64,000 nt of DNA from Pyropia yezoensis (lineage: Eukaryota; Rhodophyta; Bangiophyceae; Bangiales; Bangiaceae). Location: assembly GCA_009829735.1 (NCBI GenBank), contig CM020620.1, positions 8,138,545 to 8,202,544 on the forward strand, in the 5' to 3' direction. The translations under genes were made by a program, and so were the position numbers. The notes under the pieces were generated by a model. The model saw only the letters and a list, made by a program, of their open reading frames with translations, was not told where the DNA came from and ran no database searches. This document shows, one piece after another, positions 25,064-49,896 of the stretch. Position 1 is the stretch's first letter, and every line of letters starts with the position of its first letter.

Positions 25064-25068
25064 GTCAG

Positions 25069-25707: not shown

Positions 25708-25712
25708 AGGCG

Positions 25713-27452: not shown

Positions 27453-27455
27453 TGT

Positions 27456-28817: not shown

Positions 28818-29687
28818 ATGGATGTACCAATCCCAGGGGGTGTCAACCCGGCCAATCCGGGCTCGGGCTCGAACGCACCGACCATGGAAGCCTGGACCCA
28901 GCTTACCGCGTTTGTCGCGCAAATGAGCGAACAACTCGAGGCTCATAAGATGGAACTAGCCGACGCTAAGCAGCAACTGTCCGAAGCCAAGGCCAGGGCC
29001 ACTACTAGTGGCATGAAATCCGCGAGGCCGAACAAACCCGTGGCTTTCTCCGGTAAACCTGGGACGGTTGAAGCGTGGTGCTCGCATATGGATTTCTATG
29101 TGCGACTGAGTGACCCCGACGATGCGTGCAGTATTGCTTGCACCTTCCTCGACGGCGAAGCGTTCGACTGGTGGAAGGTCTACAGTCAGACTACAGCTGT
29201 CCCGAACTGGGAATCCTTCCGTTCTGCTCTAATTCGCCGCTTCAGTCCACTGAACAAGACACAAGCGGCACGAGACAAGCTGCACTCGTGGCGCCAAATC
29301 AAAGACGTCAGAACGTTCAACAGGACGTTTCTGAGCGTCCTCTTGGACATCCCTGACATCACGGAAGCCGTGAAGATTGACCGCTACACCCGAGGCTTGA
29401 AGCGGGACATCTGGCAGGCTCTTTGTCTCAAGTCCTACTCGGATCTTGAATCTGTCATGACTGACGCTCTGCGCGTGGAGGCTGCCAAGGCTGGTGCCTC
29501 GACGCACCTCGGCGGCACATCTGCGAGGCCATCCACGACGGGTGTCATTCCCATGGAAATCTCCAGCATCAAAGTCGAGAAACTCACGCCTGAAGAGCGT
29601 CAGCGCTGCATGCGTGAAGGCCTCTGCCTCCGCTGCCGTGAGAAAGGACATATGGCCAAGGACTGCCCAAAAGGCCAGCGGAACTGA
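28818..29687 (+). CDS. Element E gag, 289 aa
   Basis: Intact precursor from ATG 28818. It has an N-terminal Gly/Asn/Pro stretch and a coiled-coil-like segment (EQLEAHKMELADAKQQLSEA). The retrotransposon gag core follows, with PVAFSGKPGTVEAWCSHMDFY, FLDGEAFDWWKV and FRSALIRRFSPLNKTQAARDKL. A complete CCHC knuckle (CLRCREKGHMAKDC) lies at the C-terminus. Much shorter than the gags of A and B because it lacks their long Pro/Ser-rich N-terminus, and typical of fungal and plant chromovirus gags. Pol continues in another frame 24 nt later. Confidence 0.94.
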   Translation: MDVPIPGGVNPANPGSGSNAPTMEAWTQLTAFVAQMSEQLEAHKMELADAKQQLSEAKARATTSGMKSARPNKPVAFSGKPGTVEAWCSHMDFYVRLSDPDDACSIACTFLDGEAFDWWKVYSQTTAVPNWESFRSALIRRFSPLNKTQAARDKLHSWRQIKDVRTFNRTFLSVLLDIPDITEAVKIDRYTRGLKRDIWQALCLKSYSDLESVMTDALRVEAAKAGASTHLGGTSARPSTTGVIPMEISSIKVEKLTPEERQRCMREGLCLRCREKGHMAKDCPKGQRN

Positions 29688-29710
29688 AGCAGCAACCGTC
29701 ATCAAAACCG

Positions 29711-30190
29711 GTGCCAGACGCTTCTTCGGTTCCTGAAAACATGTCGTCACCATTTGAAGGCCCGCGTCTCGGGCTTCTGCTTTCTACTGCCTCTGTCAAT
29801 GGACATCTTGTTAAGGTGCTGTTTGACGACGGATCTCCCATTAACGTCGTATCTAGGCGCCTCGTGAATACCCTGAATGTGACCACGAAAGAAACGGACT
29901 TCGCGGCTAACATGCCCGATGGTCGCTCCCACGTCCTCGCAGAGACCATTGAACCCTTAGAGATTCACATCGGCCCATACCAAGAACGTCTTCGGTTTGC
30001 TGTATGCGACCTAAGTGCGTACGACATCATCCTTGGAAAGAAATGGCGTGACAACAAGGACGCCAAAATCCTCAACAAGAAGAACAAGATCTCCTTCAAG
30101 TTTAACCAAAAGAACATCTCCATCACTGCCTCCCTCAAGAAACCCCATGGCCTGATTAGTAGGCAACGCCTCGCCAAGGACCTTATTTAA
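29711..30190 (+). pseudogene. Element E protease segment
   Basis: 160 codons containing the retropepsin-like motif VLFDDGSPINVVSRRL, with Asp-Asp-Gly in place of the usual Asp-Thr/Ser-Gly, and a second conserved stretch AYDIILGKKWRDN. It ends in TAA 30188-30190, in frame with the RT segment that starts downstream, so the polyprotein is interrupted by one stop. It is in a different frame from gag, implying a frameshift for gag-pol expression. Confidence 0.85.
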
Positions 30191-30262
30191 AAAGGTCCTG
30201 TCTTCGCCATTTACCTGCAATCCGAAGATCCTTCCAGCACCTTTGACATCAATGCGATCAAA

Positions 30263-33214
30263 ATGGGAGAAGCTGAAGACAAGAATGACGTCCAAGAGAT
30301 TCTCAACGAGTACGCCGACGTCTTCCCGGAAGAGCTTCCCGATGGACTTCCTCCTGAACGCAGTCACAAGTTTAGCGTCAAGCTTACGGAGGACGCTCAA
30401 CCACGTCGCAGTGGCATTTATCGCCTATCTGAATGGGAACTCGATGAACTCAAGACACAACTTGCAACCCTCATACGAAAGGGGTTCATCCAACCAAGTG
30501 CCTCACCGTGGGGCTCTTCTGTACTCTTTGCCGCAAAGAAGGACGGTGGCTGGCGAATGTGCATCGATTATCGAGCATTGAACAAAGCCACTATCAAGAA
30601 CGCATATCCCTTACCAAGAATTGACGACATCTTCGACCAACTGCGAAAGGCCAAGTACTTCACGAAGATCGACCTCCGATCAGGTTACCACCAGATCCGG
30701 CTTGACCCTGATACTATCCCACTGACGGCGTTCCGAACAAAATACGGGTTCTACGAATTTACCGTGCTACCCTTTGGGCTAACAAATGCCCCCGCGGTCT
30801 TCATGAACCTAATGAATGACGTCTTCCGACCCTATCTCTACGAGTTTATCTGCGTCTACCTCGACGACATCCTGGTCTACAGTGAAGCTTACGAAGATCA
30901 TCTAAAGCACCTAAGGCAAGCCCTGGACAAGCTGCGAGAGCAGAAGCTCTACGCCAAACTCAGCAAATGCCAATTTGCGCGAACAACTGTGGACTACCTC
31001 GGCCATGTCATTTCCATCGAAGGCTTCTCTATGGAGGACTACAAGGTCCAAGCCATTCGATCATGGGCAACGCCACAGAGCAAAAAAGATGTGCAATCTT
31101 TCCTCGGCATGGTCAACTTCTATCGTCGATTTATTAAGGGAATGGCGTCCGTGGCTGCACCCCTCACAAGGCTTACTGGAAACGTCGACTTCGAATGGAT
31201 CTCTGACGCCCAGAAGGCTTTTGAGCAACTACAAACCCTGACGACAAGTGCACCAGTACTGAGGCCATTCGACAAGAGGTACCCAATCTTCGTCTCCACA
31301 GATGCCAGTGGGTATGCTGTTGGCGCTGTCCTTGAACAAGATGACGGAAAAGGACGACGCCCAGTGGCCTACTTCTCATTGACGCTGAACATCCACGAAC
31401 AGCGCTACAGTATCCGTGAGCGCGAACTGCTCGCAGTTGTACAAGCCATTCGACACTGGCGCTGCTACCTCCATGGAAGGTCGTTCGAGGTGCACACCGA
31501 CCATGAGTCCCTAAGGTACTTGAAAACCCAAGAGAAGCTCAACGACCGCCAAGTCAAGTGGCTAGAGCTGTTGGAGCAATTCGATTTCAAGATCATCCCC
31601 ATCAAGGGCACTTCCAACCCCGTAGCTGATGCTCTTTCAAGGCAACCACAAGACGCCCCCGGTAAGCACGCTCCCAATCAAGATCTCCTTAGTCGCGTGC
31701 TAACCAAGACCATCGAAAGCCTACCCAAGAAAACTGAAATCAACAACCTCATGACCATAAGCCAAAGTGATCAAGACCTTGCCACCTTAGACCAAGAGTA
31801 CAACGCGGATCCCGAGTTTGCCGACCTAGTCAAAGACCCGGTATCTCCCTACCGGCTTCACATGAGGTTGTTGAAACGAGGTGACCGTACGTGCATCCCC
31901 GTTGGTACTCTACGCCAAAGACTACTCCATGACTACCACGACATCCCAAGCCAAGGACATATGGGAGTTAAGAAAACCACCAACGCTATTGCTTCCAAAT
32001 ACTACTGGAAGACAATGCGGAAGGACATCCAAAGATACGTACAATCATGTGATTTGTGCCAGCGGAACAAAGCTGGCACCCATTCACCCTGGGTCACCTC
32101 AAACCACTAGATCCACCGAACCAACGATGGGCAAGTGTCTCCATGGACTTCATCACCCCTCTTCCACTGACCCAAAGGGGCCACAATGGCATTTACGTCA
32201 TTGTGGACAGACTGTCGAAGATGATTCGACTAGCACCAATGAAGCCCGACTGTACTGCACCAGTCGTAGCGCAACTCTACCATGATCACGTCTACCGTCA
32301 TCACGGTCTGCCATCCGACGTCGTCTGCGACCGAGACCGTATCTTCTTCTCCAACTTCTGGCAGTCGCTCACCGAAATTCTCAAGGTCAAGATCCAGGCA
32401 TCTTCAGCCTATCATCCCCAGACGGACGGACAAACCGAGATCATGATCAAGAAGATTGAAGAAATCCTGCGAAACTTCGTGAACCATCATCAGGGTGATT
32501 GGGACCTCTTCCTTGTTGCTGCAGAAGTAGCTTACAACCGGTCACCCAATGCGGTCACGACGTACTCCTCATTATTCCTGAACTACGGCTTTGAACCAAG
32601 GACAGTACCTGTCGACATCGTCGAGAGCAAGGAATCGAAACTACCAGCAGTCTCAGATTGGCTAAGCAGTCTGCAAAAGCTCAGGAGACTGCCATTACTG
32701 CTATCAAGAAGGCCAATGAGACGCGCTCGGCGTACGCTAACCGTCGACGCCGACCATGTACGATCGCTGTCGACGACCTCGTGCTCCTGAGCACCAAGAA
32801 CCTTATGCCGGACGCCTTCCAGGGCGCTCGCAAGTTGATGCCCAAGTTTTCGGGACCATACCGAGTCACTGAAAACATCATCATGTTACGTTCCGTCTGG
32901 ATCTGCCTCAAGCAGTCCTTGATCGAAAGGTGCACAACGCCTTTCACGCCAGTCTACTCAAGCCGTACAACGCTGATCCGTATGGTCAACTTCCTCCCGC
33001 TCCAGCTCCGGTCGCATTTCCGGACGGATCGGTTGAGTACGAAGTGGACTCCATTATTCGGTCACGAAAACGCCGTGGACGACTGCAGTACCTGGTCAAG
33101 TGGAAAGGCTGCGATGTCAGTGAGAACACCTGGCTAACCACGCAAGACCTCGACAACGCACCTGAGGTTCTCGACGCCTTCCTTCGATGCACGTCCTATG
33201 GGGGGGAGGTGTAA
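30263..33214 (+). pseudogene. Element E RT, RNase H, integrase and chromodomain, three frame breaks
   Basis: RT (from ~30500): [41 protein letters not shown] and the catalytic YLDDILVYS. RNase [18 protein letters not shown] and [13 protein letters not shown]. Integrase: zinc region to [10 protein letters not shown], then after a break near 32080 Asp in SMDFITPLP, Asp in CDRDRIFFS and Glu in DGQTEIM. Further breaks lie near 32670 and 32890. A chromodomain (EVDSIIRSRKRRGRLQYLVKW to NTWL) follows, and the frame stops at 33212-33214, inside the first bases of the 3' LTR. Lesions are single-base shifts; the copy cannot make a full polyprotein as assembled. Confidence 0.92.
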
Positions 33215-34057
33215 GGATTTCCCCCCTAATCCCATGCCTAATACTTAAGGGATAATATCTGGGACCTCGCCTTACAGATCCTGCCGAATCAACTCCTGGC
33301 AACATGGATCAACTCCTTGTATTGTGGGGCATGACGCGGTGTACCTTCCAGACGCAAGATGAGTCAGCCGCTGTCTCACGGTGTCTGCCGGCCGCACGAC
33401 AGCAGCCATCGACAGCCCATCATGGCCTGTCGAAAGGCGCCACCGTCAGCACCCATGACGAGCCACATCTGCCACAGCTGGCGAGTCCGTTAAAATGTCC
33501 TCGCTGCAGCATTGCAGCGATGTGACTGGCTAGCCGGCTGGCCGATTCGGCCGACTCGATCGAATCGTGCTTACACGCCTCTCGGACCTTCGGGCCGACT
33601 GGCGTCTGGAGCCGGCTGGGGCGGCGCCCTAGGCGCCGCACGCCGGACCCCTTCGTTTGGGGCAAACTGGGGCTGCACTCCTTTAGTGCGCACGCCCGCC
33701 CATGCTTTGTTCTGAGAGCCATGCTTTGTTTTTGGGCCGTTTTGTGCCTACCGGTGGAGCGACGGGGGAAACGCATGCTTTGGGGCACCTCGGGTGCCCC
33801 GACGCGAGTATATAGTGCGTGAGTGTCGGCGCCACCGGGGGAGACCGGAAGGGCAACCACAGACACAGACAAAGACGACCTTCACCCTTTGAACCCTCTC
33901 GATCACCACCGACGTCGCGCCGTCCTCTTCCCCAGGACCCACCACCGTCCCCACCTCCATCCTCTTCCCCGCACCCTGTCGCTCTATTGGCTGGCACGGG
34001 TCGCTGACACCATCACGAGTTCGTTGAGGGCTGCCCAAGTGTGGGTGGTTCCTCACA
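33210..34057 (+). repeat. 3' LTR of element E
   Basis: 848 bp, TGTAAGG...CCTCACA, preceded by the purine tract GGGGGGGAGG. Partner of 26606-27452. Confidence 0.96.
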
Positions 34058-34551: not shown

Positions 34552-35051
34552 NNNNNNNNNNNNNNNNNNNNNNNNNNNNNNNNNNNNNNNNNNNNNNNNN
34601 NNNNNNNNNNNNNNNNNNNNNNNNNNNNNNNNNNNNNNNNNNNNNNNNNNNNNNNNNNNNNNNNNNNNNNNNNNNNNNNNNNNNNNNNNNNNNNNNNNNN
34701 NNNNNNNNNNNNNNNNNNNNNNNNNNNNNNNNNNNNNNNNNNNNNNNNNNNNNNNNNNNNNNNNNNNNNNNNNNNNNNNNNNNNNNNNNNNNNNNNNNNN
34801 NNNNNNNNNNNNNNNNNNNNNNNNNNNNNNNNNNNNNNNNNNNNNNNNNNNNNNNNNNNNNNNNNNNNNNNNNNNNNNNNNNNNNNNNNNNNNNNNNNNN
34901 NNNNNNNNNNNNNNNNNNNNNNNNNNNNNNNNNNNNNNNNNNNNNNNNNNNNNNNNNNNNNNNNNNNNNNNNNNNNNNNNNNNNNNNNNNNNNNNNNNNN
35001 NNNNNNNNNNNNNNNNNNNNNNNNNNNNNNNNNNNNNNNNNNNNNNNNNNN
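34552..35051. other. Assembly gap, exactly 500 N
   Basis: A run of exactly 500 N is probably a placeholder of unknown true size. By comparison with C2, the missing part should hold the 5' LTR, PBS, gag and start of pol of copy C1. Frames drawn through it are artefacts. Confidence 0.98.
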
Positions 35052-38000
35052 CGGGTGAGAACTTCCAGGTGGCTGGACGGGTGCAACTTGCCCCGGCCGC
35101 GCCTGTTGTGCCCGTATCGTACTTGATACCGGGTCAGGAGCCTCCTTGATACGCAAGTCGCTATTACCAAAGGGGATGAGGCTCCAACGCTGGAAGTCTA
35201 AAGCTGACCATCTGATCGATATCAATGGTGGGGTACTTCCCATCGTTGGTGCCGTGACCCTACCAACTCGGTTGGGGACCCATGAGGTCGACGTGACCTA
35301 TGGTGTAGTCGAGAATATATCGGTACCCTGCTTCTGGGTACCCCTTATGTCGTAACACAAGTGCCTTTGATTTGTGGCCCTGAGTACTGGGTCAAGTTGA
35401 TGAATGGGGAGACTATCCCCATCCTTGGTAAGGGAAAGTCTGTGGCTCCTGTGACAGTTTCACAGTCGAAGCCTGTTTGTTCTGTGAGGGAAGGGTTTAC
35501 TGCTACTCTGCGTTTAGCCCGTAAAGTCACGTTGCCCCCCAACTCGGTGGCGCACGTGGATGTTGTAACTGATTATGCGGGGAACGGGTTGGTGCACCCT
35601 AACCCCCGTCTTGCTCGCAAGCACCAAGTGCATGTTGCCCTGGGCACGATGGACTCCAAAGCCGGAGTCCCGTGGAGGATCCAGGTGATGAACCTGAGCT
35701 CGTCGCCCAAGTTCTTCAAGTCGGGGGCCAAGTTCGGCTATATCGACCAACACGAGGGACCGGTAGTAGCGGTCACCCTCAGCGCGGGCGCAAGTAGCGA
35801 CCCGAAGTCCGGAAAGGAGAAGCATCAAGCCAAGTCGGCCGCCTCTCCTCGGCCCCAGGTAAACATGGAGGGTGTTCCACCCAGGTTGAGGGTTCAAGTT
35901 GAACGCCTCTTGGACCAATATCACAAGTTGTGGGATGGTCAATTGGGACTCATGAGAGCTACCCAACACCGGATCGAGTTGAAACCCGGTGCGCCCCCTA
36001 TACGCCAACAACCGTATAGGGGGGGACCCCGTTCAAGGGCCCTCGTTAAGGAGCAAGTTGCTCGCATGGAGGCCCTCGATGTGATCGAGGCCAGCAACGC
36101 CGAGTGGGCGAGTCCGGTGGTGATCGTCCCCAAAGTTGATGGGACCCCCCGGTTCTGTATCGACTACCGTAAGCTCAACGAGAGCACGGTGAAGGATAGT
36201 TATCCCCTACCTCGGATGGATGACTGTCTGGACTCTCTGGGGGAGGCAAACGTGTTCTCTACCCTGGACTGTAACGCGGGGTACTGGCAAATTCCCATTG
36301 CCCCGGAGGACAGGCATAAAACTACCTTTACCTGTCACTGTGGTACCTACCAGTGCAAGCGTCTACCGTTTGGCCTGTGTAACGCGCCGGCAACTTTCCA
36401 GCGCGCTATGGACATGATTCTGGCCGGAGTACGGTGGCAGATCTGTCTCGTGTACCTAGACGATATCATTGTGTTCTCCCGAAGTCCGGAGGAACACATT
36501 GGCCATCTTGGCCAGGTGTTCAAGCTACTTGCTGACGCCGGAGTGTCACTGAAGGCGAGTAAGTGCCACCTCTTCACTCAAGAGGTGGAGTACTTGGGAC
36601 ATGTTGTCCGTCCGGGGCGTCTCAGTGTCAACGAGAAAAACTTGAGGGCCATCCGCAAGGCTCAGTACCCCCGGACCCAGACCCAGATGAGGAGCTTCCT
36701 CGGGATGTGTAACGTGTACCGACGTTTCACTAAGGGCTTCGCCAAAGTGGCGAAGCCGTTGAATGAGTTAGTGAGCTCAACGCTACCGAAGAGCCTGCCT
36801 CCCCCAAGTCGGGTGGAGCAGGAATCCTTTGAGACTCTTCGGGACCTTCTGCTGAAGCCCCCTATCCTGGCTATTCCCAGGTTGGGAGGCCACTACATCC
36901 TGGATGTGGACGCTAGCTACGACCAACTTGGTTGTGTGTTGCTTCAGCAACAGCCGGACAAGGAGTACTTGCCGGTGGGATACTTCAGCAAGGGGCTAAA
37001 CTCGGCCGAGAAGAACTACGGAGTCACCGAGTTGGAAGGACTCGCAGTGGTATGGGCGGTGACGTCACTTCGTCACTACCTAGAGGGGAGAAGTTCCTCA
37101 TCCGCTGTGACCACCGCGCGTTGCAGTTCATCTTCAAGACGGACTGTACGAACACTCGTCTCAACCGGTGGAGGGTGCGACTTGCACCCTTCAACTTTGA
37201 TATTGAGTACCGACCTGGCAGGCAACATGCCCTTGCCGACGGCCTCTCTCGGGTACCTACCGAGGGACTGGACACCACCCCAGTCGATGAGGACATCCCC
37301 ATCGTGGGGGTAGTCACGCGCTCGGGTCAGGCGTTGAATCCCGAGGCGCCAGGGAACAAGAAGTACTTGCCCCTGTCCCTGGACGAAGTAGTGAAGGCCC
37401 AGGCCGAGGATCCCTTCTGCAAGTCGCAGAGGGATACCCTGGATACAGTGGCGGAGACGCGGTTCTTCCTGGGAGACGATGGCCTCCTCATGAGGAGGGG
37501 GGTATTCCAGGGGACCGAACAACTTGTCGTCCCCGCATCCCTCAAGGACAGTATCCTTGAGAGGGAGCATAACGCTCCCACGGGTGGACACCTGGGGTCT
37601 AGTAAACTGTACCAGACCCTGAGGACCAGGTACTACTGGCCGTCCATGGTGGTGGACATCTACAGTTGGGTGGCTGCCTGCACAAGTTGTGCACAGAACC
37701 GTCTGATGGAACGGCGGCCTACTACGGCTATGCTATTGTTCCCGGCCAAGGAGCCCTTCGCCGCGTTGGCGATGGACATCCTTGGGCCACTGCCAGTGAC
37801 CGAGGAGGGCAACCAGTACCTCCTGGTCATCTGTGACCGCTTCACGAAACTTACGCGAGCGATCCCACTGGCAGAGATCACGGCCATGTCGGTCGTGTCA
37901 GCCTTCCTAGATCACTGGGTTGCCGCGTATGGCATTCCGGATAGTACACTATCGGACAATGGACCGCAATTTGCGTCTGTACTGTTTCAAGGAGTGCTGG

Positions 38001-38865
38001 ATATGTTGGGGTTAAGGCAAACTATGCCACCCCCTACCACCCACAAACTAATGGGCAGGTGGAGCGCTTCAACAAAACTATTGTTAGGCAGCTGCGCCAT
38101 TATGTGAGTGAGCACGTGAAGACGTGGGACCAATACATTTCTATTCTGACCACTGCCTACAATTCGCAGGTTCACTCATCTACCGGGGAAGTACCCCTCG
38201 CTTTTGTGACCCCCCGTCGCGTGCGGTCTATTGCCGTGCGGCGGCCGCTCCCAACTAGGGAGGATGGTGGCAGTACGCCCACTCCTACTGAGAGTAAGGC
38301 GGAGTTCGCTGCTAGGCTTGAAAACCTCATCCCTAAAGTCAGGGCTGAGATGGACAAAGCACAAAAGCGCTACAAGCGTACCTTTGACAAAAAGGTGCGC
38401 AACGCCAAGCATGTCCCCGAGCAGGGTGACTGGGTATTGGTCCACTCACACACCCCAACTGGGGGTAAGTTGGTGTTCCAGACGAAGGGGCCGTACCAGG
38501 TCCTTCGTACTGATGGGCGGCGCTTCACCATCGAAAGTGACGATGGGGTCCGCACAGTGAACGGACAGGACGTGGTCAAAGTTGCACCACCGCCTGCAGG
38601 CGACCCAGCTTGGGCGCGTGCTTTGAAAACGTGGCGCCTGCCCTCGCTGCCTGCAGCCAAACAGGGCCCGCAGGAGTACGTGTTCGACAAGTTCATCGAC
38701 CACGGCTGGGATGAGGATACTGACCGCCTCATGTTGAGGGTGCGTTGGTTTGGCTACAAAGCCAAGGATGATACGTGGGAGTATGTGGAGGACCTTCCTG
38801 CTGAGAAGGTCCGGGCGTACTGTGCCCGGAACGAGATAGACCCTAACAGCCCTCCCTCAACGTGA
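35052..38865 (+). pseudogene. Element C1 pol, four frameshifts
   Basis: Starts at the gap inside the protease region. RT: FCIDYRKLNESTVKD, LDCNAGYWQIPI, FGLCNAPATFQRAM and the catalytic YLDDIIVFS. RNase H: ILDVDASYDQLGC and RCDHRALQFIFKTD. Integrase zinc region CTSCAQNRLM; core Asp in AMDILGPLPV, Asp in LSDNGPQFAS, Glu in QVERFNKTIV. A chromodomain (YVFDKFIDHGWDEDTDRLML to DTWEYVEDL) ends the frame. Compared with C2, single bases are missing near 35093, 35327, 37087 and 38010, mostly in C or G runs. The Leu codon that is TAG in C2 is intact here. Not translatable as one protein. Confidence 0.92.
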
Positions 38866-38976
38866 GGGAAGGCCGAGCAACAGTGCCAAGAGAGTGCTTC
38901 AAGTCGAAGTGGTACGCAGAGTGGCTTTAAACTACAGCCCTAACCCTCACACTCTCACAACAAAAGCAGCTGCCAA

Positions 38977-40920
38977 CTAGGCACGCATGCTAGACTCTCC
39001 CACTCCACGGCCCTCGCCCTCACGTGGAGGCGAGCGGCGAGACCCACGCCGATAACGGTCACCACTCGTTGGAGGGGGCGGCGGCTCCAAGTCGGAACCG
39101 TCGCGCCCCTCACGGTCGCGCAAGTGGCGCCGACCGTGGCTACTCTTCTGCCTGGTCTTGCGCGCAAGTTTGCGACGCAGACGCTGGACAGACTCCGTCT
39201 CCGATGGGGTAGAGGACTCCGAGACGGAGTAAGACAACTCGTCTTCCGACACGGAGGGAGAGCGCCGCGAGTGACGGCGACGACGGCGAGGAGGCGAGTA
39301 TGCCCGGCTCGCACGACGCTTGCCACGCCCAAGTGGGGTTGGCTGGGGCATAATAGCCCCAATGCGAGCCAACTCGGCCGTCATAAACTCCGCCACCGAC
39401 TCGCAACTCGCGGTCGCCACTGCAGTACGAACGCGCTCCTCAAGTTGAGGAGTCTCGGAACTTTGGAGGGTTGCGGTCGACGCGGCCAACCAGGAAATGG
39501 TGCGCACCAACGTGGTGATCATCATCTCTGAGGTTAGAGGCGTGGGCGGTAATACCAACTTGGGGTATACCGTCAGGAGGGTGGCCCCCAAGTTGGGAGA
39601 CACCGGTGTGGATGACTCCACGGCCACGCTGATCGGGATGTTCCCGTGAGGCTGGAAAGGAACAGGAGGAAGCGGAGGGGCACGCCGAGGTGGCGGTACC
39701 CGGGTGTAACTGCGACCCCGACTTGGGGCCCCCGCAGTAGGTTGAGTCATATGGTCATCATATGAGGGCACAGCCATAACTATGGGCTTGTCTGGGGGTG
39801 GCGCAGTGTGACGATCCACCCCCGGGGCATACGGGTAGTCCCCGATGCCCAACCCCTCTCGTAGGACCACACGGCCGTCGTGAAGTTCACGAGCGACCCA
39901 TACGAACTGGCGAAGTGCGCCATCGTCCTTGGGCCCCCGAGTGGGGCGGCGCAACTTGTGCTCAATGCTCTCCCACTCGATAAACTTGTGGAGGCGGAGC
40001 ATCTCCTCAAGTAGAGTGAGTTGTCCTGACGAGCACCCCTCAGCAACTAGCTGAGGGGTGAGCTGTTCCAAACCCTGGATGAGCCGGAGGGGGAGATGCC
40101 AGAGCATCCCCCGCCGCTGAACACATGACACCCAGGTCGACATGACCTCGAGGAGCCACTGGGTGGCCAACATGGCCCACACCAGATGATCAGGGCCAGC
40201 CGTCAACATGACGGAGCCGAAGTGGTCAAGCAACCGTGGCAACAATGCCGGGAACCCGTAGGGGACCTCAACTTGAGGCCACCACTCGGGCTTCTTCGGG
40301 TAGTATTGCTCCTTACTGGCAGCAGACTGCTGAGGAAACTCAAGTTGAGCCGAGGTCACCAAGTAGGGACCTCGCCGGAAGTCCTTCTCCATCCGCACAT
40401 CAAAGTGATGAGTGTGCGGATCGGCCTCGTGAAGGTACGGGGGGCGAGTTGCCACCGCGTCCCAAGTGAAGGTCGGCAAGTCGCCGGGACCCGGGATAGT
40501 TCCCCCGCGGTCCACCATGGCCTTGGCCCGCTGCACGTCCTCGACCTCCTCGTCGTCCAGGAAGGCAAACTGGTCCGTCCTGAAGCCGGCAGGGAACCCG
40601 ACCCTACGGGGATACTTCTCCCGTAGGCGGTCCCATACCCGACCCATCGCTGCGCCGAGTCGGCCACAGCGAAGAACAGTCAACCCCTCCTCATACAGAG
40701 GCCAAGCGGGGTAAAACCACCGCCCCAAGGCCTCACGCGGGACAACTTGTCCCGCCTCCGGGGGAGATCCTGCCGTCAACCCAAAGCCGGGTGACGCGGG
40801 AGTCCCACCCCCCGGAGCGATCGCGGAGCCCCCGCCGGAAGTCCCGGCAGGCGCTGCACCGTAGGAGGTGTCCTCCATACGCTCATCGAGAGAGTCCGTC
40901 TCCACTCCCGGAGTCGCCAT
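38977..40920 (-). CDS. Accessory antisense ORF of element C1, intact, 647 aa
   Basis: Convergent with pol (stop codons 111 bp apart) and starting about 340 bp inside the 3' LTR. ATG 40920 (MATPGVETD) is chosen; the open frame upstream has only TTG. Layout: Gly/Pro/Ser-rich lead (1-65); globular domain (66-370) with RWFYPAWPLYEEGL, GPYLVTS, EWWPQVEVPYG, LLDHFGSVML and a Trp/Leu/Arg-rich helical block; Pro-rich linker (371-430); helical domain (431-522) ending VAEFMTAELARIGA; Arg/Ser-rich basic tail (530-647) resembling SR domains, suggesting nuclear or RNA association. No signal peptide, membrane span or enzyme motif seen. It is uninterrupted although C1 pol has four frameshifts. Function unknown. 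Confidence 0.8.
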   Translation of the reverse strand: MATPGVETDSLDERMEDTSYGAAPAGTSGGGSAIAPGGGTPASPGFGLTAGSPPEAGQVVPREALGRWFYPAWPLYEEGLTVLRCGRLGAAMGRVWDRLREKYPRRVGFPAGFRTDQFAFLDDEEVEDVQRAKAMVDRGGTIPGPGDLPTFTWDAVATRPPYLHEADPHTHHFDVRMEKDFRRGPYLVTSAQLEFPQQSAASKEQYYPKKPEWWPQVEVPYGFPALLPRLLDHFGSVMLTAGPDHLVWAMLATQWLLEVMSTWVSCVQRRGMLWHLPLRLIQGLEQLTPQLVAEGCSSGQLTLLEEMLRLHKFIEWESIEHKLRRPTRGPKDDGALRQFVWVARELHDGRVVLREGLGIGDYPYAPGVDRHTAPPPDKPIVMAVPSYDDHMTQPTAGAPSRGRSYTRVPPPRRAPPLPPVPFQPHGNIPISVAVESSTPVSPNLGATLLTVYPKLVLPPTPLTSEMMITTLVRTISWLAASTATLQSSETPQLEERVRTAVATASCESVAEFMTAELARIGAIMPQPTPLGRGKRRASRAYSPPRRRRRHSRRSPSVSEDELSYSVSESSTPSETESVQRLRRKLARKTRQKSSHGRRHLRDREGRDGSDLEPPPPPTSGDRYRRGSRRSPPREGEGRGVGESSMRA

Positions 40921-41262
40921 GGCTCTCCCCAAGTTGGGGAGAGACGTCCTGGCTATCGCGGCACGAGACCCGCCTCGAGTTGAGGGGGACTCGGATCGTG
41001 GGTAAACGGGTGGCCTCCCCAGCGTGGGGTGGCCCCGTGTAAGGTGAAGGAGAAGTGGTGGTGGTGGTGAGGTGTGAACCGAGGAGAGCAAGCTGCCGAG
41101 TGGGCAAGCTTGAGGAGAGGGGCGGCCAACGTGACCGCCTCCACATCCGCGTTACGTACTCAAGGGGGGACAGCAAGTCGCGTCCCCCCCCAACGCCGAG
41201 ACGTGCGTTTACGCACCCCCTCACAGGGCCGACCGGGTCGGTCGGAACTGAGGAGAGGGGAG

Positions 41263-41730
41263 TGTGGCAGTATTGACCCCCAGGTAGGGGGCAACACGTG
41301 CCATGCAAGGGGCGGCAGGCCACTAGCCTGATCCGTTCCTCCCCCTGCATTTGGGTCCATATTCCCTAAGTTCGGGATAGTTAGCTTAGTAGTAAATCCA
41401 ACTTGGATTTGAGGGTTTTCTGCATTTATCGTCTTGAATTTTCGTGTGGCCCGGTGGGCAGGTGCTGGGGTGGGAGATTCTGAGTGGCGAGATTCTGAGT
41501 GGACCCTGGGGGGATAAGGGGAGGGACAGCGGGGCTTGGCCCTGCGTCCCCGTCCCGACCAAGAAACTGTTGGACCACACACCATCTTCTTGTTTGTCCG
41601 TGGGGGGATTGCCCCACAACAGGGATAGAGTGTGTGCGACTTGCACTTCTTCCGGTTCCCCCGACACGGGAGGCAGCCCTCGCACACCGCCCCAACTTGG
41701 GTACTGTGTGTGCGAGTGGTTTTTGCCACA
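41263..41730 (+). repeat. Central LTR shared by C1 and C2
   Basis: 468 bp, TGTGGCAG...TTGCCACA, acting as the 3' LTR of C1 and 5' LTR of C2. Directly after it (41731) no TGG-type primer binding site is present, suggesting that C2 lost its PBS by deletion. Confidence 0.93.
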
Positions 41731-41816
41731 GCGGCTACACCAAGCGCGCCGCGCCGGACTACAGGCACTGAGGGTGAACTTACCCCAGTGCCACAGCGGC
41801 TGTTCCCTCAACGTGA

Positions 41817-42911
41817 GGTGCCGCCCAAGATCCAGGTAGCCAACCCGGTCTACCAGAGGATCTTGACTGTGAGACCTACGCCCTCCACAACAAGTCGGTG
41901 GCGTATGGTCCTGACCAGGCCCGAGCCATGGGCCGTGCCAAGAAGAATGCACTTCATTCTTTTGGGCACAAAGCGGAGTGGGACGGAACTCCCCCCCTCC
42001 GTGTCTTTGAGTTCCTACGTCGTTTCACAAAAGCCTGTGACGACAATGCCATAAGTGAAGGCATGGCTTTTTACATGCTACAGGAGTTTACGAAGGGCGA
42101 CCTACGGACAGAACTTATGTCCGTCATGCCCAGCTCCTCAAGTGGAGGCGCTCGGGAGGTGACGTCCTATTTGGAGCTCGTCAACTGGTTGTTGAGAGCC
42201 ATGGTTGATGAGGCAGCGCTGGCTTCTCAAGTCGAGGAGTGTACGCAAGCCCATCAGGAAGAGGCGGAGGACGAGTTGTCCTTTGCGGAGCGAGTCCGTA
42301 AGCTCAACAATCTTCGTGGGTTTCTTCATCCACAAGCTGTGGTGAAGAGTCGGTTTGTGGAGGGACTCCATTGGTCAGTCCGGATGGAGACCCGGGAGCA
42401 TAACACTGCCCGGGCGACCCTGGCCGAGTTGGCCAGGTTCGCCTATCGCAGAGGCGAGGCCTACCGCAAAATGCGGGAAGAACAACGCCAGGAGCGTCAG
42501 GCCGAGTTGGCCAAGGAACGGGAGGAGGCGCGCCAGGCCAGAGAGTTGAGAGAGGCACGCCGAATCCGCAAGGAGAGGGTGGTAGCTGCCGTGGGAACTT
42601 CCCAGGGTATCCCTTCGTCTTCCCCAGTTGGGAAGACCCCTCCCGGAACGGACCATCGGTGTTGGAACTGCAACTCCGATGGTCACTGGGCATATGATTG
42701 CCCCAAGTTGAGTAAACGCATCCAACAACTTGTTAGGAATGCGAGTAAAAAGTCGGCTACGAACGAAGTACGTTCACGCCGCGAGGGTGGGTCTCGACCG
42801 GTCGTTGCGGTCGCCACACCCTCGGCGGAGGGGGCGGACACGTCGTCCTCGGACTCGTCGTCTTCCTCCCCGCCCTCAGATTCGGACGCCAAGTCGGCGG
42901 GAAACGAATGA
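41817..42911 (+). pseudogene. Element C2 gag, N-terminally truncated
   Basis: The frame is open from just after a TGA (41814) with no ATG until 41928. The capsid-like core has TPPLRVFEFLRRFTKACDDNAISEGMAFYML and a coiled-coil, highly charged segment (EEQRQERQAELAKEREEARQ). The nucleocapsid knuckle CWNCNSDGHWAYDC is a complete CCHC. An acidic Ser/Asp tail ends at TGA 42909-42911. Only about 90 bp separate it from the LTR, and the long Pro/Ser-rich N-terminus seen in A and B is missing, so the leader and 5' gag were probably deleted. The stop overlaps the pol start in ATGA. Confidence 0.88.
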
Positions 42912-45900
42912 CCGTTGGGGCTGGTCGTCCGAAGCTCACAACGGCAGCCTCGGCCAAGTGGGCCAGGAGGACGAACCAACCGTGCCGGATACTGCGGCGA
43001 CCTAAGGGAGTCCGCCCACCTCGGGTAGGACTCCCCAAGAACGTAAACCCACGTCGGGTCATCGCGGTGCTGACGGGTGAGAACTTCCGGGTGGCTGGAC
43101 GGGTGCAACTTGCCCCCGGCCGTGCATGCTGTACCCGTATCGTACTTGATACCGGGTCAGGAGCCTCCTTGATACGCAAGGCGCTATTACCAAAGGAGGT
43201 GAAGCTCCAACGCTGGAGGTCCAAAGCTGACCATATGATTGACATCAATGGTGGGGTACTTCCCATCGTTGGTGCCGTGACCCCACCAACTAGGTTGGGG
43301 ACCCATGAGGTCGACGTGACCTATGGCGTAGTTGAGAATATATCGGTACCCCTGCTTCTGGGTACCCCTTATGTTGTTACACAAGTGCCTTTGATTTGTG
43401 GCCCTGAGTACTGGGTCAAGTTGATGAATGGGGAGACTATCCCCATCCTTGGTAAGGGAAAGTCTGTGGCTCCTGTGACAGTCTCACTGTCGAAGCCTGT
43501 TTGTTCGGTGAGGGAAGGGTTTACTGCTACCCTGCGTCTAGCCCGTAAAGTCACGTTGCCCCCCAACTCGGTGGCGCACGTTGATGTTGTAACTGATTTT
43601 ACGGGGAACGGGTTGGTGCACCCTCACCCCCGTCTTGCTCGCAAGCACCAAGTGCATGTTGCCCTTTGCACGATGGACTCCGAAGCCGGAGTCCCGTGGA
43701 GGATCCAGGTGATGAACCTGAGCCCGACGCCCAAGTACTTCAAGTCGGGAGCCAAGTTCGGCTATATCGACCAACACGAGGGACCGGTAGTAGCGGTCAC
43801 CCTCAACGCGGGCGCAAGTAGCGACCCGAAGTCCGGAAAGGAGATGCATCAAGCCAAGTCGGCCGCCTCTCCTCAACCCCATGTGAACATGGAGGGTGTC
43901 CCCCCCAGGTTGAGGGTTCAAGTTGAACGCCTCTTGGACCAATATCACAAGTTGTGGGATGGTCAATTGGGACTCATGAGAGCCACCCAACACCGGATCG
44001 AGTTGAAGCCCGGTGCACCCCCTATACGCCAACAACCGTATAGGGGAGGACCTCGTTCAAGGGCCCTCGTTAAGGAGCAAGTTGCTCGCATGGAGGCCCT
44101 CGATGTGATCGAGGCCAGCAACGCCGAGTGGGCGAGTCCGGTGGTTATCGTCCCCAAAGTTGATGGGACCCCCCGGTTTTGTATCGACTACCGTAAGCTC
44201 AACGAGAGCACGGTGAAGGACAGTTATCCCCTACCTAGGATGGATGACTGTCTGGACTCTCTGGGGGAGGCAAACGTGTTCTCTACCCTGGACTGTAACG
44301 CGGGGTACTGGCAAATTCCCATTGCCCCGGAGGACAGGCATAAAACTACCTTTACCTGTCACTGTGGTACCTACCAGTGCAAGCGTCTACCGTTTGGTCT
44401 GTGTAACGCGCCGGCAACTTTCCAGCGCGCTATGGACATGATTCTGGCCGGAGTACGGTGGCAGATCTGTCTTGTGTACCTAGACGATATCATTGTGTTC
44501 TCCCGAAGTCCGGAGGAACACATTGGCCATCTTGGCCAGGTGTTTAAGCTACTTGCTGACGCCGGTGTGTCACTGAAGGCGAGTAAGTGCCACCTCTTTA
44601 CTCAAGAGGTGGAGTACTTGGGACATGTTGTCCATCCGGGGCGTCTCAGTGTTAACGAGAAGATCTTGAGGGCCATTCGTAAGGCTCAGTACCCCCGCAC
44701 CCAGACCCAGATGAGGAGCTTCCTCGGGATGTGTAACGTGTACCGACGTTTCACCAAGGGCTTCGCCAAGGTGGCGAAGCCGTTGAATGAGCTAGTGAGC
44801 TCGACGCTACCGAAGAACCTGCCTCCCCCAAGTCGGGTGGAGCAGGAATCCTTTGAGACTCTTCGAGACCTTCTGCTGAAGCCCCCCATCTTGGCTATTC
44901 CCAGGTTGGGAGGCCACTACATCCTGGATGTGGACGCTAGCTACGACCAACTTGGTTGTGTGTTGCTTCAGCAGCAGCCGGACAAGGAGTACTTGCCGGT
45001 GGGATACTTCAGTAAAGGGCTGAACTCGGCCGAGAAGAACTACGGAGTCACCGAGTTGGAAGGACTCGCAGTGGTGTGGGCGGTGACGTCACTTCGTCAC
45101 TACCTGGAGGGTGAGAAGTTCCTCATCCGCTGTGACCACCGCGCGTTGCAATTTATCTTCAAGACGGACTGTACGAACACTCGTCTCAACCGGTGGAGGG
45201 TGCGACTGGCACCCTTCAATTTTGACATTGAGTACCGACCTGGCAGGCAACATGCCCTTGCCGATGGCCTCTCTCGGGTACCCACCGAGGGGCTGGACAC
45301 TAACCCAGTTGATGAGGACATCCCCATCGTGGGGGTAGTCACGCGCTCGGGTCAGGCGTTGAACCCCGAGGCGCCAAGGAACAAGAAGTACTTGCCCCTG
45401 TCCCTGGACGAGGTGGTGAAGGCCCAGGCCGAGGATCCCTTCTGCAAGTCGCAGAGGGATATACTGGATACAGTGGTAGAGACGCGTTTCTTTCTGGGAG
45501 ACGATGGCCTCCTCATGAGGAGGGGGGTATTCCAGGGGACCGAACAACTTGTCGTCCCCGCATCCCTCAAGGACAGTATCCTTGAGAGGGAGCACAACGC
45601 TCCCACGGGTGGACCCCTGGGGTCTAGTAAACTGTACCAGACCCTGAGGACCAGGTACTACTGGCCGTCCATGGTGGTGGACATCTACAGTTGGGTGGCT
45701 GCCTGCACAAGTTGTGCACAGAATCGTCTGATGGAACGGCGGCCTACTACGGCTATGCTATTGTTCCCGGCCAAGGAGCCCTTCGCCGCGTAGGCGATGG
45801 ACATCCTTGGGCCACTGCCCGTGACCGAGGATGGCAACCAGTACCTCCTGGTCATCTGTGACCGCTTCACGAAACTTACGCGAGCGATCCCACTCGCAGA

Positions 45901-46891
45901 GATCACGGCCATGTCGGTCGTGTCAGCTTCCCTAGATCACTGGGTTGCCGCGTATGGCATCCCAGATAGTACACTATCGGACAATGGACCGCAATTTGCG
46001 TCTGTACTGTTTCAGGAAGTGCTGGATATGTTGGGGGTTAAGGAAAACTATGCCACCCCCTACCACCCACAAACTAATGGACAGGTGGAGCGCTTCAACA
46101 AAACTATTGTTAGGCAGCTGCGCCACTATGTGAGTGAGCACGTGAAGACGTGGGACCAATACATTTCTATCCTTACTACTGCCTACAATTCGCAGGTTCA
46201 CTCATCTACAGGGGAAGTACCCCTCGCTTTTGTGACCCCCCGTCGCGTGCGGTCTATTGCCGTGCGGCGGTCGCTCCCAACTAGGGAGGATGGTGGCAGT
46301 ACGCCTACTCCTACTGAGAGTAAGGCGGAGTTCGCCGCTAGGCTTGAAAACCTCATCCCTAAAGTCAGGGCTGAGATGGACAAAGCACAAAAGCGCTACA
46401 AGCGTACCTTTGACAGAAAGGTGCGCAATGCTAAACATGTCCCCGAGCAGGGTGACTGGGTGCTGGTACACTCGCACACCCCAACTGGGTGTAAGCTGGT
46501 ATTCCAGACGAAGGGACCGTACCAGGTCCTTCGTACTGATGGGCGGCGCTTCACCATCGAAAGTGACGATGGGGTCCGCACAGTGAACGGACAGGACGTG
46601 GTCAAAGTTGCACCACCGCCTGCAGGCGACCCAGCTTGGGCGCGTGCTTTGGAAGCGTGGCGCCTCCCCTCACTGCCTGCGGCCAAACAGGGCCCGCAGG
46701 AGTACGTGTTCGATAAGTTCATCGACCACGGATGGGATGAAGACACTGACCGCCTCATGTTGAGGGTGCGTTGGTTTCGCTACAAAGCCAAGGATGATAC
46801 GTGGGAGTATGTGGAGGACCTTCCCGCTGAGAAGGTCCGGGCGTACTGTGCCCGGAATGAGATAGACCCTAACAGCCCTCCCTCAACGTGA
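42908..46891 (+). pseudogene. Element C2 pol, one nonsense codon
   Basis: One frame of 1328 codons from ATG 42908 to TGA 46891, interrupted only by TAG 45791-45793 just before the integrase AMDILGPLP motif. Protease IVLDTGSGASLIRK; RT FCIDYRKLNESTVKD, FGLCNAPATFQRAM and YLDDIIVFS; RNase H RCDHRALQFIFKTD; integrase zinc region and D,D,E core (Glu in QVERFNKTIV); C-terminal chromodomain through DTWEYVEDL. The start codon overlaps the gag stop (ATGA), so pol may be made by termination-reinitiation instead of frameshifting. It is the most complete pol of the window. Confidence 0.94.
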
Positions 46892-47001
46892 GGGAAGGCC
46901 GAGCAACAGTGCCAAGAGAGTGCTTCAAGTCGAAGTGGTACGCAGAGTAGCTTCAACTACAGCCCTAACCCTCACACTCTCACAACAAAGGCAGCTGCCA
47001 A

Positions 47002-48945
47002 CTAGGCACGCATGCTAGACTCTCCCACTCCACGGCCCTCGCCCTCACGTGGAGGCGAGCGGCGAGACCCACGCCGATAACGGTCACCACTCGTTGGAGG
47101 GGGCGGCGGCTCCAAGTCGGAACCGTCGCGCCCCTCACGGTCGCGCAAGTGGCGCCGACCGTGGCCACTCTTCTGCCTGGTCTTGCGCGCAAGTTTGCGA
47201 CGCAGACGCTGGACAGACTCCGTCTCCGACGGGGTAGAGGACTCCGAAACGGAGTAAGACAACTCGTCTTCCGATACGGAAGGAGAGCGCCGCGAGTGTC
47301 GGCGACGACGGCGAGGAGGCGAGTATGCCCGGCTCGCGCGACGTTTGCCACGCCCAAGTGGGGCTGGCTGGGGCATAATAGCCCCAATGCGAGCCAACTC
47401 GGCTGTCATAAACTCCGCCACGGACTCGCAACTCGCGGTCGCCACTGCAGTACGAACGCGCTCCTCAAGTTGAGGAGTCTCGGAACTCTGTAGGGTTGCG
47501 GTCGACGCGGCCAACCAGGAAATGGTGCGCACCAACGTGGTGATCATCATCTCTGCGGTTAGAGGCGTGGGCGGCAACACCATCTTGGGGTATACCGTCA
47601 GGAGGGTGGCCCCCAAGTTGGGAGACACCGGTGTGGATGACTCCACGGCCACGCTGATCGGGATGTTCCCGTGAGGCTGGAAAGGAACAGGAGGAAGCGG
47701 AGGGGCACGCCGAGGTGGCGGTACCCGGGTGTAACTGCGACCCCGACTTGGGGCCCCCGCAGTGGGTTGAGTCATATGGTCATCATAGGACGGCACGGCC
47801 ATAACTATGGGCTTGTCCGGGGGTGGCGCAGTGTGGCGATCCATCCCCGGGGCATACGGGTAGTCCCCGATGCCCAACCCCTCTCGTAGGACCACACGGC
47901 CGTCGTGAAGTTCACGAGCGACCCATACGAACTGGCGAAGTGCGCCATCTTCCTTGGGCCCACAAGTGGGGCGGCGCAACTTGTGCTCAATGCTCTCCCA
48001 CTCGATAAACTTATGGAGCCGGAGCATCTCCTCAAGTAGAGTGAGTTGTCCTGATGAGCACCCCTCAGCAACTAGCTGAGGGGTGAGCTGTTCCAAACCT
48101 TGGAGGAGCCGGAGGGGGAGATGCCAGAGCATCCCCCGCCGCTGAACACAGGACACCCAGGTCGACATGACCTCGAGGAGCCACTGGGTGGCCAACATGG
48201 CCCACACCAGGTGATCAGGGGCAGCCGTCAACATGAAGGAGCCGGAGTGGTCAAGCAACCGTGGCAACAACGCCGGGAACCCGTAGGGGACCTCAACTTG
48301 AGGCCACCACTCGGGCTTCTTCGGATAGTACTGCTCCTTACTGGCAGCAGACTGTTGAGGAAACTCAAGTTGAGCCGAGGTCACCAAGTAGGGACCTCGC
48401 CGGAAGTCTTTCTCCATCTGCACATCAAAGTGATGAGTGTGCGGATCGGCCTCGTGGAGGTACGGTGGGCGAGTTGCCACAGCGTCCCACGTGAAGGTCG
48501 GCAAGTCGCCGGGACCCGGGATAGTTCCCCCGCGGTCCACCATGGCCTTGGCACGCTGAACGTCCTCAACCTCCTCATCGTCCAGGAAGGCAAACTGGTC
48601 CGTCCTGAAGCCGGCAGGGAACCCGACCCTACGGGGATATTTCTCCCGAAGGTGGCCCCATACCCGACCCATCGCTGCGCCAAGTCGGCCACAGCGAAGA
48701 ACAGTCAACCCCTCCTCATAGAGAGGCCAAGCGGGGTAAAACCACCGCCCCAAGGCCTCACGCGGGACAACTTGTCCCGCCTCCGGGGGAGACCCCGCCG
48801 TCAACCCGAAGCCGGGTGACGCGGGAGTCCCATCCCCCGGAGCGATCGCGGAGCCCCCGCCGGAAGTCCCGGCGGGTGCTGCACCGTAGCTGGTGTCCTC
48901 CATACGCTCATCTAGAGAGTCCTTCTCAACTCCCGGGGTCGCCAT
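47002..48945 (-). CDS. Accessory antisense ORF of element C2, intact, 647 aa
   Basis: Same position, length and layout as the C1 copy: stop 111 bp past the pol stop, ATG 48945. The two proteins differ by a few dozen scattered substitutions at most (for example VETDSLDER against VEKDSLDER, RRPTRGPK against RRPTCGPK) with no insertion, deletion or stop over 1944 bp, whereas the matching pol genes carry five lesions between them. The globular motifs EWWPQVEVPYG, LLDHSGSFML and GMLWHLPLRLL, the Pro-rich linker, the helical domain and the Arg/Ser tail are all kept. It would be transcribed leftward from within or near the 3' LTR. Function unknown. Confidence 0.8.
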   Translation of the reverse strand: MATPGVEKDSLDERMEDTSYGAAPAGTSGGGSAIAPGDGTPASPGFGLTAGSPPEAGQVVPREALGRWFYPAWPLYEEGLTVLRCGRLGAAMGRVWGHLREKYPRRVGFPAGFRTDQFAFLDDEEVEDVQRAKAMVDRGGTIPGPGDLPTFTWDAVATRPPYLHEADPHTHHFDVQMEKDFRRGPYLVTSAQLEFPQQSAASKEQYYPKKPEWWPQVEVPYGFPALLPRLLDHSGSFMLTAAPDHLVWAMLATQWLLEVMSTWVSCVQRRGMLWHLPLRLLQGLEQLTPQLVAEGCSSGQLTLLEEMLRLHKFIEWESIEHKLRRPTCGPKEDGALRQFVWVARELHDGRVVLREGLGIGDYPYAPGMDRHTAPPPDKPIVMAVPSYDDHMTQPTAGAPSRGRSYTRVPPPRRAPPLPPVPFQPHGNIPISVAVESSTPVSPNLGATLLTVYPKMVLPPTPLTAEMMITTLVRTISWLAASTATLQSSETPQLEERVRTAVATASCESVAEFMTAELARIGAIMPQPAPLGRGKRRASRAYSPPRRRRRHSRRSPSVSEDELSYSVSESSTPSETESVQRLRRKLARKTRQKSGHGRRHLRDREGRDGSDLEPPPPPTSGDRYRRGSRRSPPREGEGRGVGESSMRA

Positions 48946-49283
48946 GGCTCTCCCCAAGTTGGGGAGACACGCTCTGGCTATCGCGGCACGAGACCCGCCT
49001 CGAGTTGAGGGGGACTCGGATCGTGGGTATACGGGTGGCCTCCCCAGCGTGGGGCGGCCCAGTGGAAGGTGAAGGGGAGGTGGTGGTGATGGTGAAGTGC
49101 GAACCGAAGAGAGCAAGCTGCCGAGTGGGCAAGCTTGAGGAGAGGGGCGGTCAACGTGATTGCCTCCACATCCGCGTTACGTACTCCAGGGGGGAGAGCA
49201 AGTCGCGCCCCCAACGCCGAGACGTGCGTTTACGCACCCCCTCACAGGGCCGACCGGGTCGGTCGGAACTGAGGAGAGGGGAG

Positions 49284-49752
49284 TGTGGCAGTATTGACCC
49301 CCAGGTAGGGGGGCAACACGTGCCATGCAAGGGGCGGCAGGCCACTAGCCTGATCCGTTTCTCCCCCTGCATTTGGGTCCATATTCCCTAAGTTTGGGAT
49401 AGTTAGCTTAGTAGTAAATCCAACTTGGATTTGAGGGTTTTCTGCATTTATCGTCTTGCATTTTCGTGTGGCCCGGTGGGCAGGTGCTGGGGTGGGAGAT
49501 TCTGAGTGGCGAGATTCTGAGTGGACCCTGGGGGGATAAGGGAAGGGACAGCGGGGCTTGGCCCTGCGTCCCCGTCCCGACCAAGAAACTGTTGGACCAC
49601 ACACCATCCTCTTGTTTGTCCGTGGGGGGTTTGCCCCACAACAGGGACAGAGTGTGTGCGACTTACACTTCTTCCGGTTCCCCCGACACGGGAGGCAGCC
49701 CTAGCACACCGCCCCAACTTGGGTGCCGTGTGTGCTAGTGGTTTTTGCCACA
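49284..49752 (+). repeat. 3' LTR of element C2
   Basis: 469 bp, TGTGGCAG...TTGCCACA, preceded by GAGGAGAGGGGAG. Confidence 0.93.
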
Positions 49753-49896
49753 GTTAGGACCGCTGGTGGCGGCGGTGATGGCGGCAGCGGTGGGCGGTGG
49801 CGGGGGCGATCGTGGACACGACGGCTTTGTCAGCGGCCGTGGCGGCGGCGGCACCGGCGGCGGCGCCCTGGTCGGCCGCAGCGCCGCGGCCGGTGC
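49753..49896 (+). repeat. GGC/GGT-rich low-complexity stretch between C2 and D
   Basis: About 144 bp dominated by imperfect GGC/GGT triplets. It may be target DNA of both elements. No gene. Confidence 0.6.

Follow-up and report, generated by a model that had tools for sequence, protein, structure and literature searches.

Introduction

Plant retrotransposons have been known since the 1990s to carry antisense open reading frames (ORFs) between pol and the 3' long terminal repeat (LTR), a positional class termed aORF-3R that the excerpts of PMC7264820 drawn on here describe as being without known function. For Retand, the excerpted text of PMC11963269 reports TRP28 proteins, which may bind DNA, in 97% of clusters and tandem-repeat arrays in the antisense ORF (aORF) region of about half of the elements; it also gives HBZ of human T-cell leukemia virus type 1 (HTLV-1) as a retroelement antisense gene with a nuclear product. 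VANC proteins counter silencing in Arabidopsis, as found by experiment: VANC21, for which binding and demethylation have been demonstrated, recognizes YAGTATTAY, a motif dense in VANDAL21 and rare in other transposable elements, and VANC6 has other motifs (PMC5735166, in the portions cited). Here we describe an antisense gene of the Ty3/gypsy element A in the red alga Pyropia yezoensis, together with short palindromes dispersed through A and its relatives. The stretch analyzed, hereafter the window, comprises 64,000 nucleotides (assembly GCA_009829735.1, contig CM020620.1, positions 8,138,545 to 8,202,544, forward strand). An earlier note on the window, which had singled out this gene from the letters alone, rightly named plant Ty3/gypsy elements as a precedent for antisense ORFs at this place, these being aORF-3R (PMC7264820, same excerpts).

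Results and Discussion

An intact antisense gene in element A

Element A is a Ty3/gypsy element present as two tandem copies that are 96% identical, in which we found gag with a zinc knuckle, then reverse transcriptase (RT), RNase H and integrase in order, plus LTRs. Its parts in the window are as follows.

35361 to 38865, plus strand: pol of copy 1, right of an N gap, with four frame changes relative to copy 2
38977 to 40920, minus strand: aORF of copy 1, 647 amino acids, ATG start, 724-codon stop-free run
41261 to 41730, plus strand: LTR between copies 1 and 2, ends TGTGGCA...TGCCACA
41898 to 42911, plus strand: gag part of copy 2 with CCHC zinc knuckle (Pfam zf-CCHC, E 8.8e-6)
42908 to 46891, plus strand: pol of copy 2 (RT, RNase H, integrase, sub-threshold chromodomain), with one in-frame TAG at 45791-45793
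47002 to 48945, minus strand: aORF of copy 2, 647 amino acids, open, 97.5% identical to the copy 1 aORF
49283 to 49753, plus strand: 3' LTR of copy 2, from the LTR comparison

The earlier note had claimed an intact 647-codon antisense gene between pol and the 3' LTR. ORF listing and translation gave the same coordinates to the base, 647 amino acids plus a stop, lying between the end of pol at 38865 and the LTR that begins at 41261. The minus-strand ORF extends to 38977-41091 (704 codons) when counted from a TTG. When 38866-41260 was shuffled 1000 times with dinucleotides preserved, the longest open run per shuffle, both strands considered, averaged 205 codons and never exceeded 423, short of 724, so a chance ORF was rejected. 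No sense-strand run in this stretch exceeds 195 codons; the frame is therefore not derived from an overlapping sense gene. Composition does not explain the open length, a point that the note had proposed to check.

In both copies the order is pol end, aORF on the opposite strand, purine tract and 3' LTR, and the aORF is open although each copy's pol is damaged. The four frameshifts that the note had reported for copy 1 were recovered by tblastn as four changes of frame against copy 2 (frames 3, 2, 1, 3, 2). The LTR between the copies, with the purine tract directly ahead of it, is identical to 49282-49753 in 458 of 472 aligned columns. At the C-terminus of integrase the Pfam Chromo match (E 0.0011, 19.2 bits) lies below the cut-off of 25.1 and is thus sub-threshold. 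The 5' side of copy 1 is not readable because of the N gap at 34552-35051.

Relatives of the gene in one retrotransposon clade

Element B, in the same window, carries a divergent homologue of the aORF, again antisense to pol and beyond integrase, which in this copy is broken into three pieces. The A aORF finds it by tblastn, and a profile built without A sequences matches both A frames (E 4.6e-18 and 7.9e-17). A third family, C, keeps a remnant. The corresponding features are listed here.

9102 to 10355, plus strand: aORF of B, first piece, 417 amino acids (tblastn with the A aORF, E 3.6e-8; profile match)
10225 to 10530 and 10534 to 10737, plus strand: remaining pieces of the B aORF, in other frames (profile E 3.2e-25 and 7.7e-14)
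11009 to 15183, minus strand: pol of B (integrase and RT; Pfam rve, RVT_1), on the strand opposite to the aORF
17821 to 18285, plus strand: aORF remnant of family C, with longer frames in other genomic copies

Searches of the alga's own genome covered 107.5 Mb in 11 contigs. The B query gave 102 matches at 40-100% identity. Among the 30 best B-type places, 22 had no stop within the match, and in 25 integrase was found beyond the aORF's 3' end and antisense to it, while no place had it on the aORF strand; of the other five, one stood beside an A-type pol piece and four had no pol in the 1.5-kb flank. All 8 A loci likewise had integrase antisense to the aORF. Public data hold eight relatives of the B protein, including two hypothetical proteins of Pyropia vietnamensis (P0008, P0009). 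We refer to the B-type subfamilies as c1 (B itself), c2, c3a, c3b and c4 (locus L069); locus L070 was dropped as a family of its own, being a decayed c2-like copy.

The window copy of family C (17066-25063) is nested in an LTR of B (within 7753-25711) and flanked on either side by the 5-base target duplication GTCAG; its LTRs are 99.65% identical. It retains a 154-codon C-terminal part of the aORF, antisense to its pol, which matches 150 scored places (of 580 candidates) where the commonest open frame is 779 codons, counted by eye. A 1.15-kb piece of another C copy scored 92.7 bits against the aORF profile, the best of 200 shuffles reaching 4.1. Family C was therefore rejected as an aORF-free control. 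As a separate observation, CAAG is favored over CTTG on the sense strand of this family (104 to 28 in C, 17066-24492; 73 to 30 in element C2, 50469-56631), which perhaps reflects codon usage or another kind of motif. A minus-strand ORF of C2 at 52707-53339 (matching piece 52710-53342) also matched the aORF profile weakly (E 0.0026), probably by chance.

The RT sequences of A, B and C share 72-74% identity pairwise (A and B, 74%). Element D (26606-34057) is a distant Ty3/gypsy element whose LTR-like repeats, some 850 bases long, are 99% identical; its RT is only 38-44% identical to theirs, and the ORF listing gives no minus-strand ORF of 200 codons in it. Among the elements seen in this analysis, the aORF is thus confined to one clade. 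It diverges faster than RT, the A and B aORF proteins sharing 24% identity over 107 alignable residues against 74% for RT.

Purifying selection and retention across the genome

The two window copies of the A aORF are separated by 50.5 synonymous and 18.5 nonsynonymous differences over 647 codons, a ratio of nonsynonymous to synonymous rates (dN/dS) of 0.12 by the Nei-Gojobori method; in this check, also suggested by the note, the value is far from 1. Further comparisons used seven loci per subfamily, chosen for a full-length open frame and thus biased to intact copies. Between c1, c2 and c3, dN/dS was 0.23-0.41 with dS above 1. Within c3b all 21 pairs fell at 0.19-0.68, and within c2 20 of 21 pairs fell at 0.23-0.64, the remaining pair (L026/L027) giving 4.8 on a single synonymous difference. 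The young c3a copies (dS 0.01-0.06) ranged from 0.37 to 1.26, with the highest ratios at the lowest dS. Young within-family values may include decaying copies; between-family values measure the selected past.

Retention was scored over the copies that match the aORF. With the A aORF as query, 40 of 40 scored places (of 1463 candidates) were about 100% identical over 1401 bases. For a 332-residue piece of the copy 2 protein, 3324 candidates yielded 121 scored places, 97-100% identical, of which 120 were stop-free; in 104 of the 121, counted by eye, the frame was exactly 724 codons. Because the copies are this similar and nearly all stop-free, we conclude that family A has recently multiplied with its aORF frame intact. 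The aORF is a protein-coding accessory gene under purifying selection in a Ty3/gypsy clade of this bangiophyte red alga.

Family-specific palindromes

To the eye, A is studded with CAAGTTG/CAACTTG and B with GGNCC. We counted six motifs over 13 stretches, with dinucleotide shuffles as the null. CRASTYG occurred 43 times in A copy 2 against 4.5 expected, and the other twelve stretches had z at most 2.5. GGNCC was found 267 times in B (97 expected) and 154 times in the c1 locus L047 (63 expected), falling below expectation in A, C, C2 and the 1-7.7 kb stretch. Two c2 loci were rich in TGGNCCA (18 against 2.4 and 17 against 2.3), c3a and c3b in GGNNCC (106 against 56 and 128 against 67), and c4 in GNNGGCCNNC (22 against 3.9). 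A strong dispersed palindrome was thus present in five of the six aORF families examined (A, c1, c2, c3 and c4; not C). Element D and the stretches at 1-7.7 kb and 57.6-64 kb had z at most 2.5 for every motif of the table. The palindrome GANGNCNTC of D (22 against 4.8 with both strands counted, z 7.1) is within the range of top patterns in control stretches, and GGCGCC is mildly enriched there (13 against 3.1 with both repeats counted). The window stretches that carry the A and B motifs are given below.

35052 to 41260, no strand: A copy 1 with CRASTYG, 38 sites, 6.1 per kb
41731 to 49282, no strand: A copy 2 with CRASTYG, 41 sites, 5.4 per kb
48955 to 48961, no strand: example site read in the sequence, CAAGTTG core in a 19-base palindrome
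7753 to 17065, no strand: element B with GGNCC, 267 sites in 8401-17065, 30.8 per kb

A second null shuffled synonymous codons, holding protein and codon usage fixed. Six of seven pol and aORF pieces of A and B gave z of 7.2-9.0, and the gag pieces 3.9 and 5.7. CRASTYG stood at 14 against 2.7 in the aORF of A copy 2 and 15 against 3.3 in its first pol ORF, GGNCC at 43 against 20.6 in B integrase and 50 against 19.6 in B RT, and GGNNCC at 62 against 35.6 in a c3b aORF. The D pol and the window's NOG1 gene had no excess of the family motifs under this null. Because the excess survives synonymous shuffling, it is a nucleotide-level property, and codon usage or protein sequence was rejected as the origin of the palindromes.

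Motif density tracks the element borders. GGNCC runs at 30.8 per kb in the interior of B (8401-17065), 20.1 in its LTR and 18.5 in the LTR remainder beyond C, against 6.3 in nested C and, outside B, 4.3 to the left (4500-7752) and 10.1 to the right (894 bases). Sites occur in gag, pol, aORF and LTR alike. The A copies differ at 1 of 160 flank positions within two bases of a core, compared with 251 of 6238 positions elsewhere; core positions differ at 7 of 287, a count inflated by taking sites present in either copy. B-type motifs have no strand preference and the c1-c4 palindromes have unpaired flanks, features that would fit dimer sites on double-stranded DNA.

Features of the encoded protein

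The note had found the protein's layout to match nothing familiar, and profile and structure-based searches bore this out, recognizing no Pfam family and no solved fold for the aORF proteins. The conserved core lies at about residues 110-345 of protein P0003. TRP28 (PF04195) was not listed for the 11 members of the A2 alignment or 7 further proteins in hmmscan against Pfam-A at E up to 10, where HMMER filters drop most very weak matches. The AlphaFold2 model of the A protein has low confidence (mean predicted local distance difference test score, pLDDT, 48). Its secondary structure is compatible with the layout that the note had proposed, a globular domain, proline-rich linker, helical domain and SR-like tail; that low confidence tempers the proposal, and the basic RS-like tail proved to be a feature of the A protein only among the aligned homologues. 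The c-family proteins end in an RVRGRD-like stretch.

A candidate self-recognition system and its alternatives

We propose that the aORF protein binds its own element's motif and serves an anti-silencing or control logic like that of VANC, reached independently in an LTR retrotransposon, a reading by analogy to which we assign a probability of roughly 45%. The aORF would be driven by an antisense promoter located within or beside the 3' LTR. Its product would enter the nucleus, as the basic tail of A and the RVRGRD-like stretch of the c families hint, and, to go by the co-occurrence of gene and palindrome, could bind the dispersed palindromes of its own family as a dimer. By analogy, binding may mark the element's own copies, prevent their silencing or control their transcription. 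Protein and motif would have diverged together, each family thereby acting on its own copies and leaving the host untouched. We advance only tentatively, and with less conviction, the fuller proposal that a fast-diverging antisense protein reads a family palindrome at tens to hundreds of sites, gag and pol codons included, as a self-recognition and anti-silencing code convergent with VANC, which would provide the first mechanism for aORF-3R.

Several observations weigh against a protein that reads its family's palindrome. Family C carries an aORF homologue, which counts against a strict link of gene and motif, and has a weak palindrome: ACCGGT reaches 11 against 1.9 expected in C and 4 against 1.6 in C2, with z 3.8 under a second-order null, and the 1.15-kb aORF piece of another C copy contains no site. 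The motifs of c1-c3 overlap, c3b being rich also in GGNCC and TGGNCCA and c1 in GGNNCC; the difference among c1-c3 is therefore one of degree, and A and c4 stand apart. In the c2 aORFs the TGGNCCA excess falls to z 2.7-2.9 under synonymous shuffles (for example, 7 against 3.0). The C-terminal half of A integrase (45797-46888 and the matching part of copy 1) has no CRASTYG in either copy; synonymous shuffles expect only 0.6 there, other parts of A hold about 4-9 per kb, and this half may be a recent exchange with another element. The contrast set consists of one aORF-free element, D, and gag and integrase co-vary with the motif by family just as the aORF does. No DNA-binding fold was recognized in the predicted models, which are weak. 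Finally, the A sites have hairpin-like traits, taken up below.

Quite possibly, though in our judgment short of an even chance, the aORF is instead a selected accessory factor that acts in nuclear import, transcription or the handling of RNA, the kind of role suggested for Grande gene23 and Retand ORF4, and it is Gag, integrase or a host protein that recognizes the palindromes. Selection and retention of the gene require no motif, family C has the gene with a weak palindrome only, and the motifs lie in gag, pol and LTR and not just in the aORF. RT-distant D, which has pol but none of these motifs, and the strong motif in all aORF families examined except C speak against this reading.

For A, the sites could be hairpins of sense RNA or of single-stranded cDNA in which a variable stem, closed by a C-G pair, carries the five-base loop RASTN, bound by Gag along the lines of the dispersed packaging-signal idea and unrelated to the aORF. 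Their flanks are complementary at distances 1 to 4 in 39, 35, 24 and 18 of 43 sites (12, 12, 14 and 10 expected), forming palindromes that reach 19 bases with arms differing from site to site. This pairing has no base preference, which looks more hairpin-like than typical of an ordinary binding site. Hairpins with 5-base loops and perfect stems of at least 4 number 106 against 34 expected in 41731-49282, and the loops are biased to the sense strand (17 to 5 in copy 2, 15 to 3 in copy 1, the copies being non-independent). Against this, G-U is no more frequent than A-C at the non-Watson-Crick positions of distances 1-4 (12 and 13), a lack of wobble preference that speaks against RNA and fits DNA; the A core is nearly self-complementary; the palindromes of B, c2, c3 and c4 are without paired flanks; and short hairpins are scarcer in B than in its shuffled versions for almost every spacer length. 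A pure RNA-hairpin reading for all families was rejected on the unpaired flanks outside A, the B deficit and the missing wobble excess, and we consider hairpin packaging signals in A unlikely. The A sites may be targets of a protein that binds cruciforms or hairpins, dimer sites lengthened by a mutational process such as RT fold-back synthesis, or single-strand signals.

That the antisense RNA alone matters, through double-stranded RNA or long non-coding RNA regulation with the reading frame incidental, would fit the antisense transcripts known in several LTR elements (PMC7264820, as excerpted), but is very improbable given purifying selection on the protein and a frame kept in over a hundred copies. 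Least probable of all is a chance or passenger ORF such as a captured host gene without a role, which the lack of a recognized family or fold would suit and which the shuffle test, dN/dS and the same place and orientation in divergent families refute.

For the aORF-3R class, the gene described here offers a hypothesis of one target motif per family, with different motifs in several families. If the self-recognition proposal is true, retrotransposons, like VANDAL DNA transposons, would be able to mark their own elements with an address code that is read by a protein they themselves encode, and such a system could also yield sequence-specific tools for editing chromatin.

Other features of the window

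The left end of the window holds an intronless-looking gene for the nucleolar GTPase NOG1 (1486-3774) and an ORF with Tc5-type DNA-binding and DDE_1 transposase domains (4985-6688). Observed over expected CpG is 0.76-0.88 in A, B, C and the c-family stretches and about 1 in D and the NOG1 gene; the lower ratio could reflect cytosine methylation of the aORF-bearing clade.

Comparison with known systems

Among the literature listings searched, none described this gene or comparable palindromes in elements of red algae, and the word stem "palindrom-" is absent from the main text of PMC5735166. The red-algal aORF is a member of the positional class aORF-3R, whose comparators are maize Grande gene23, rice RIRE2, Silene Retand ORF4, PvRetro13 and fungal Boty: it sits between pol and the 3' LTR on the strand opposite to gag-pol, and it is conserved in most scored copies. 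It differs from them in its red-algal host, in a protein family without a recognized relative among them, and in its dispersed family-specific palindromes. Retand has family-specific tandem-repeat arrays, according to the excerpted source, whereas the red-algal elements have dispersed palindromes and no TRP28 match. HBZ shares with the red-algal genes that it is an antisense gene of a retroelement, and differs in that the red-algal proteins have no Pfam match at all and belong to another host and another class of element.

The VANDALs that encode VANC proteins are DNA transposons, and the red-algal host element instead has gag, RT, RNase H and integrase. In both cases a transposon-encoded protein family goes with a short motif concentrated in each family's own elements and scarce outside them, with divergence of both motif and protein between families (PMC5735166 and PMC10398659, in the parts cited); the red-algal families share this density in their own elements, with overlap among c1-c3 and with family C as a weak case. 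VANC21 motifs, in the same portions of PMC5735166, have one orientation and lie mainly in non-coding tandem repeats, whereas the red-algal sites are palindromic and both coding and non-coding. Binding by VANC was established experimentally, and the red-algal sites are known from sequence alone. What is new here is an unrecognized protein family in a known positional class, joined with family-specific palindromes.

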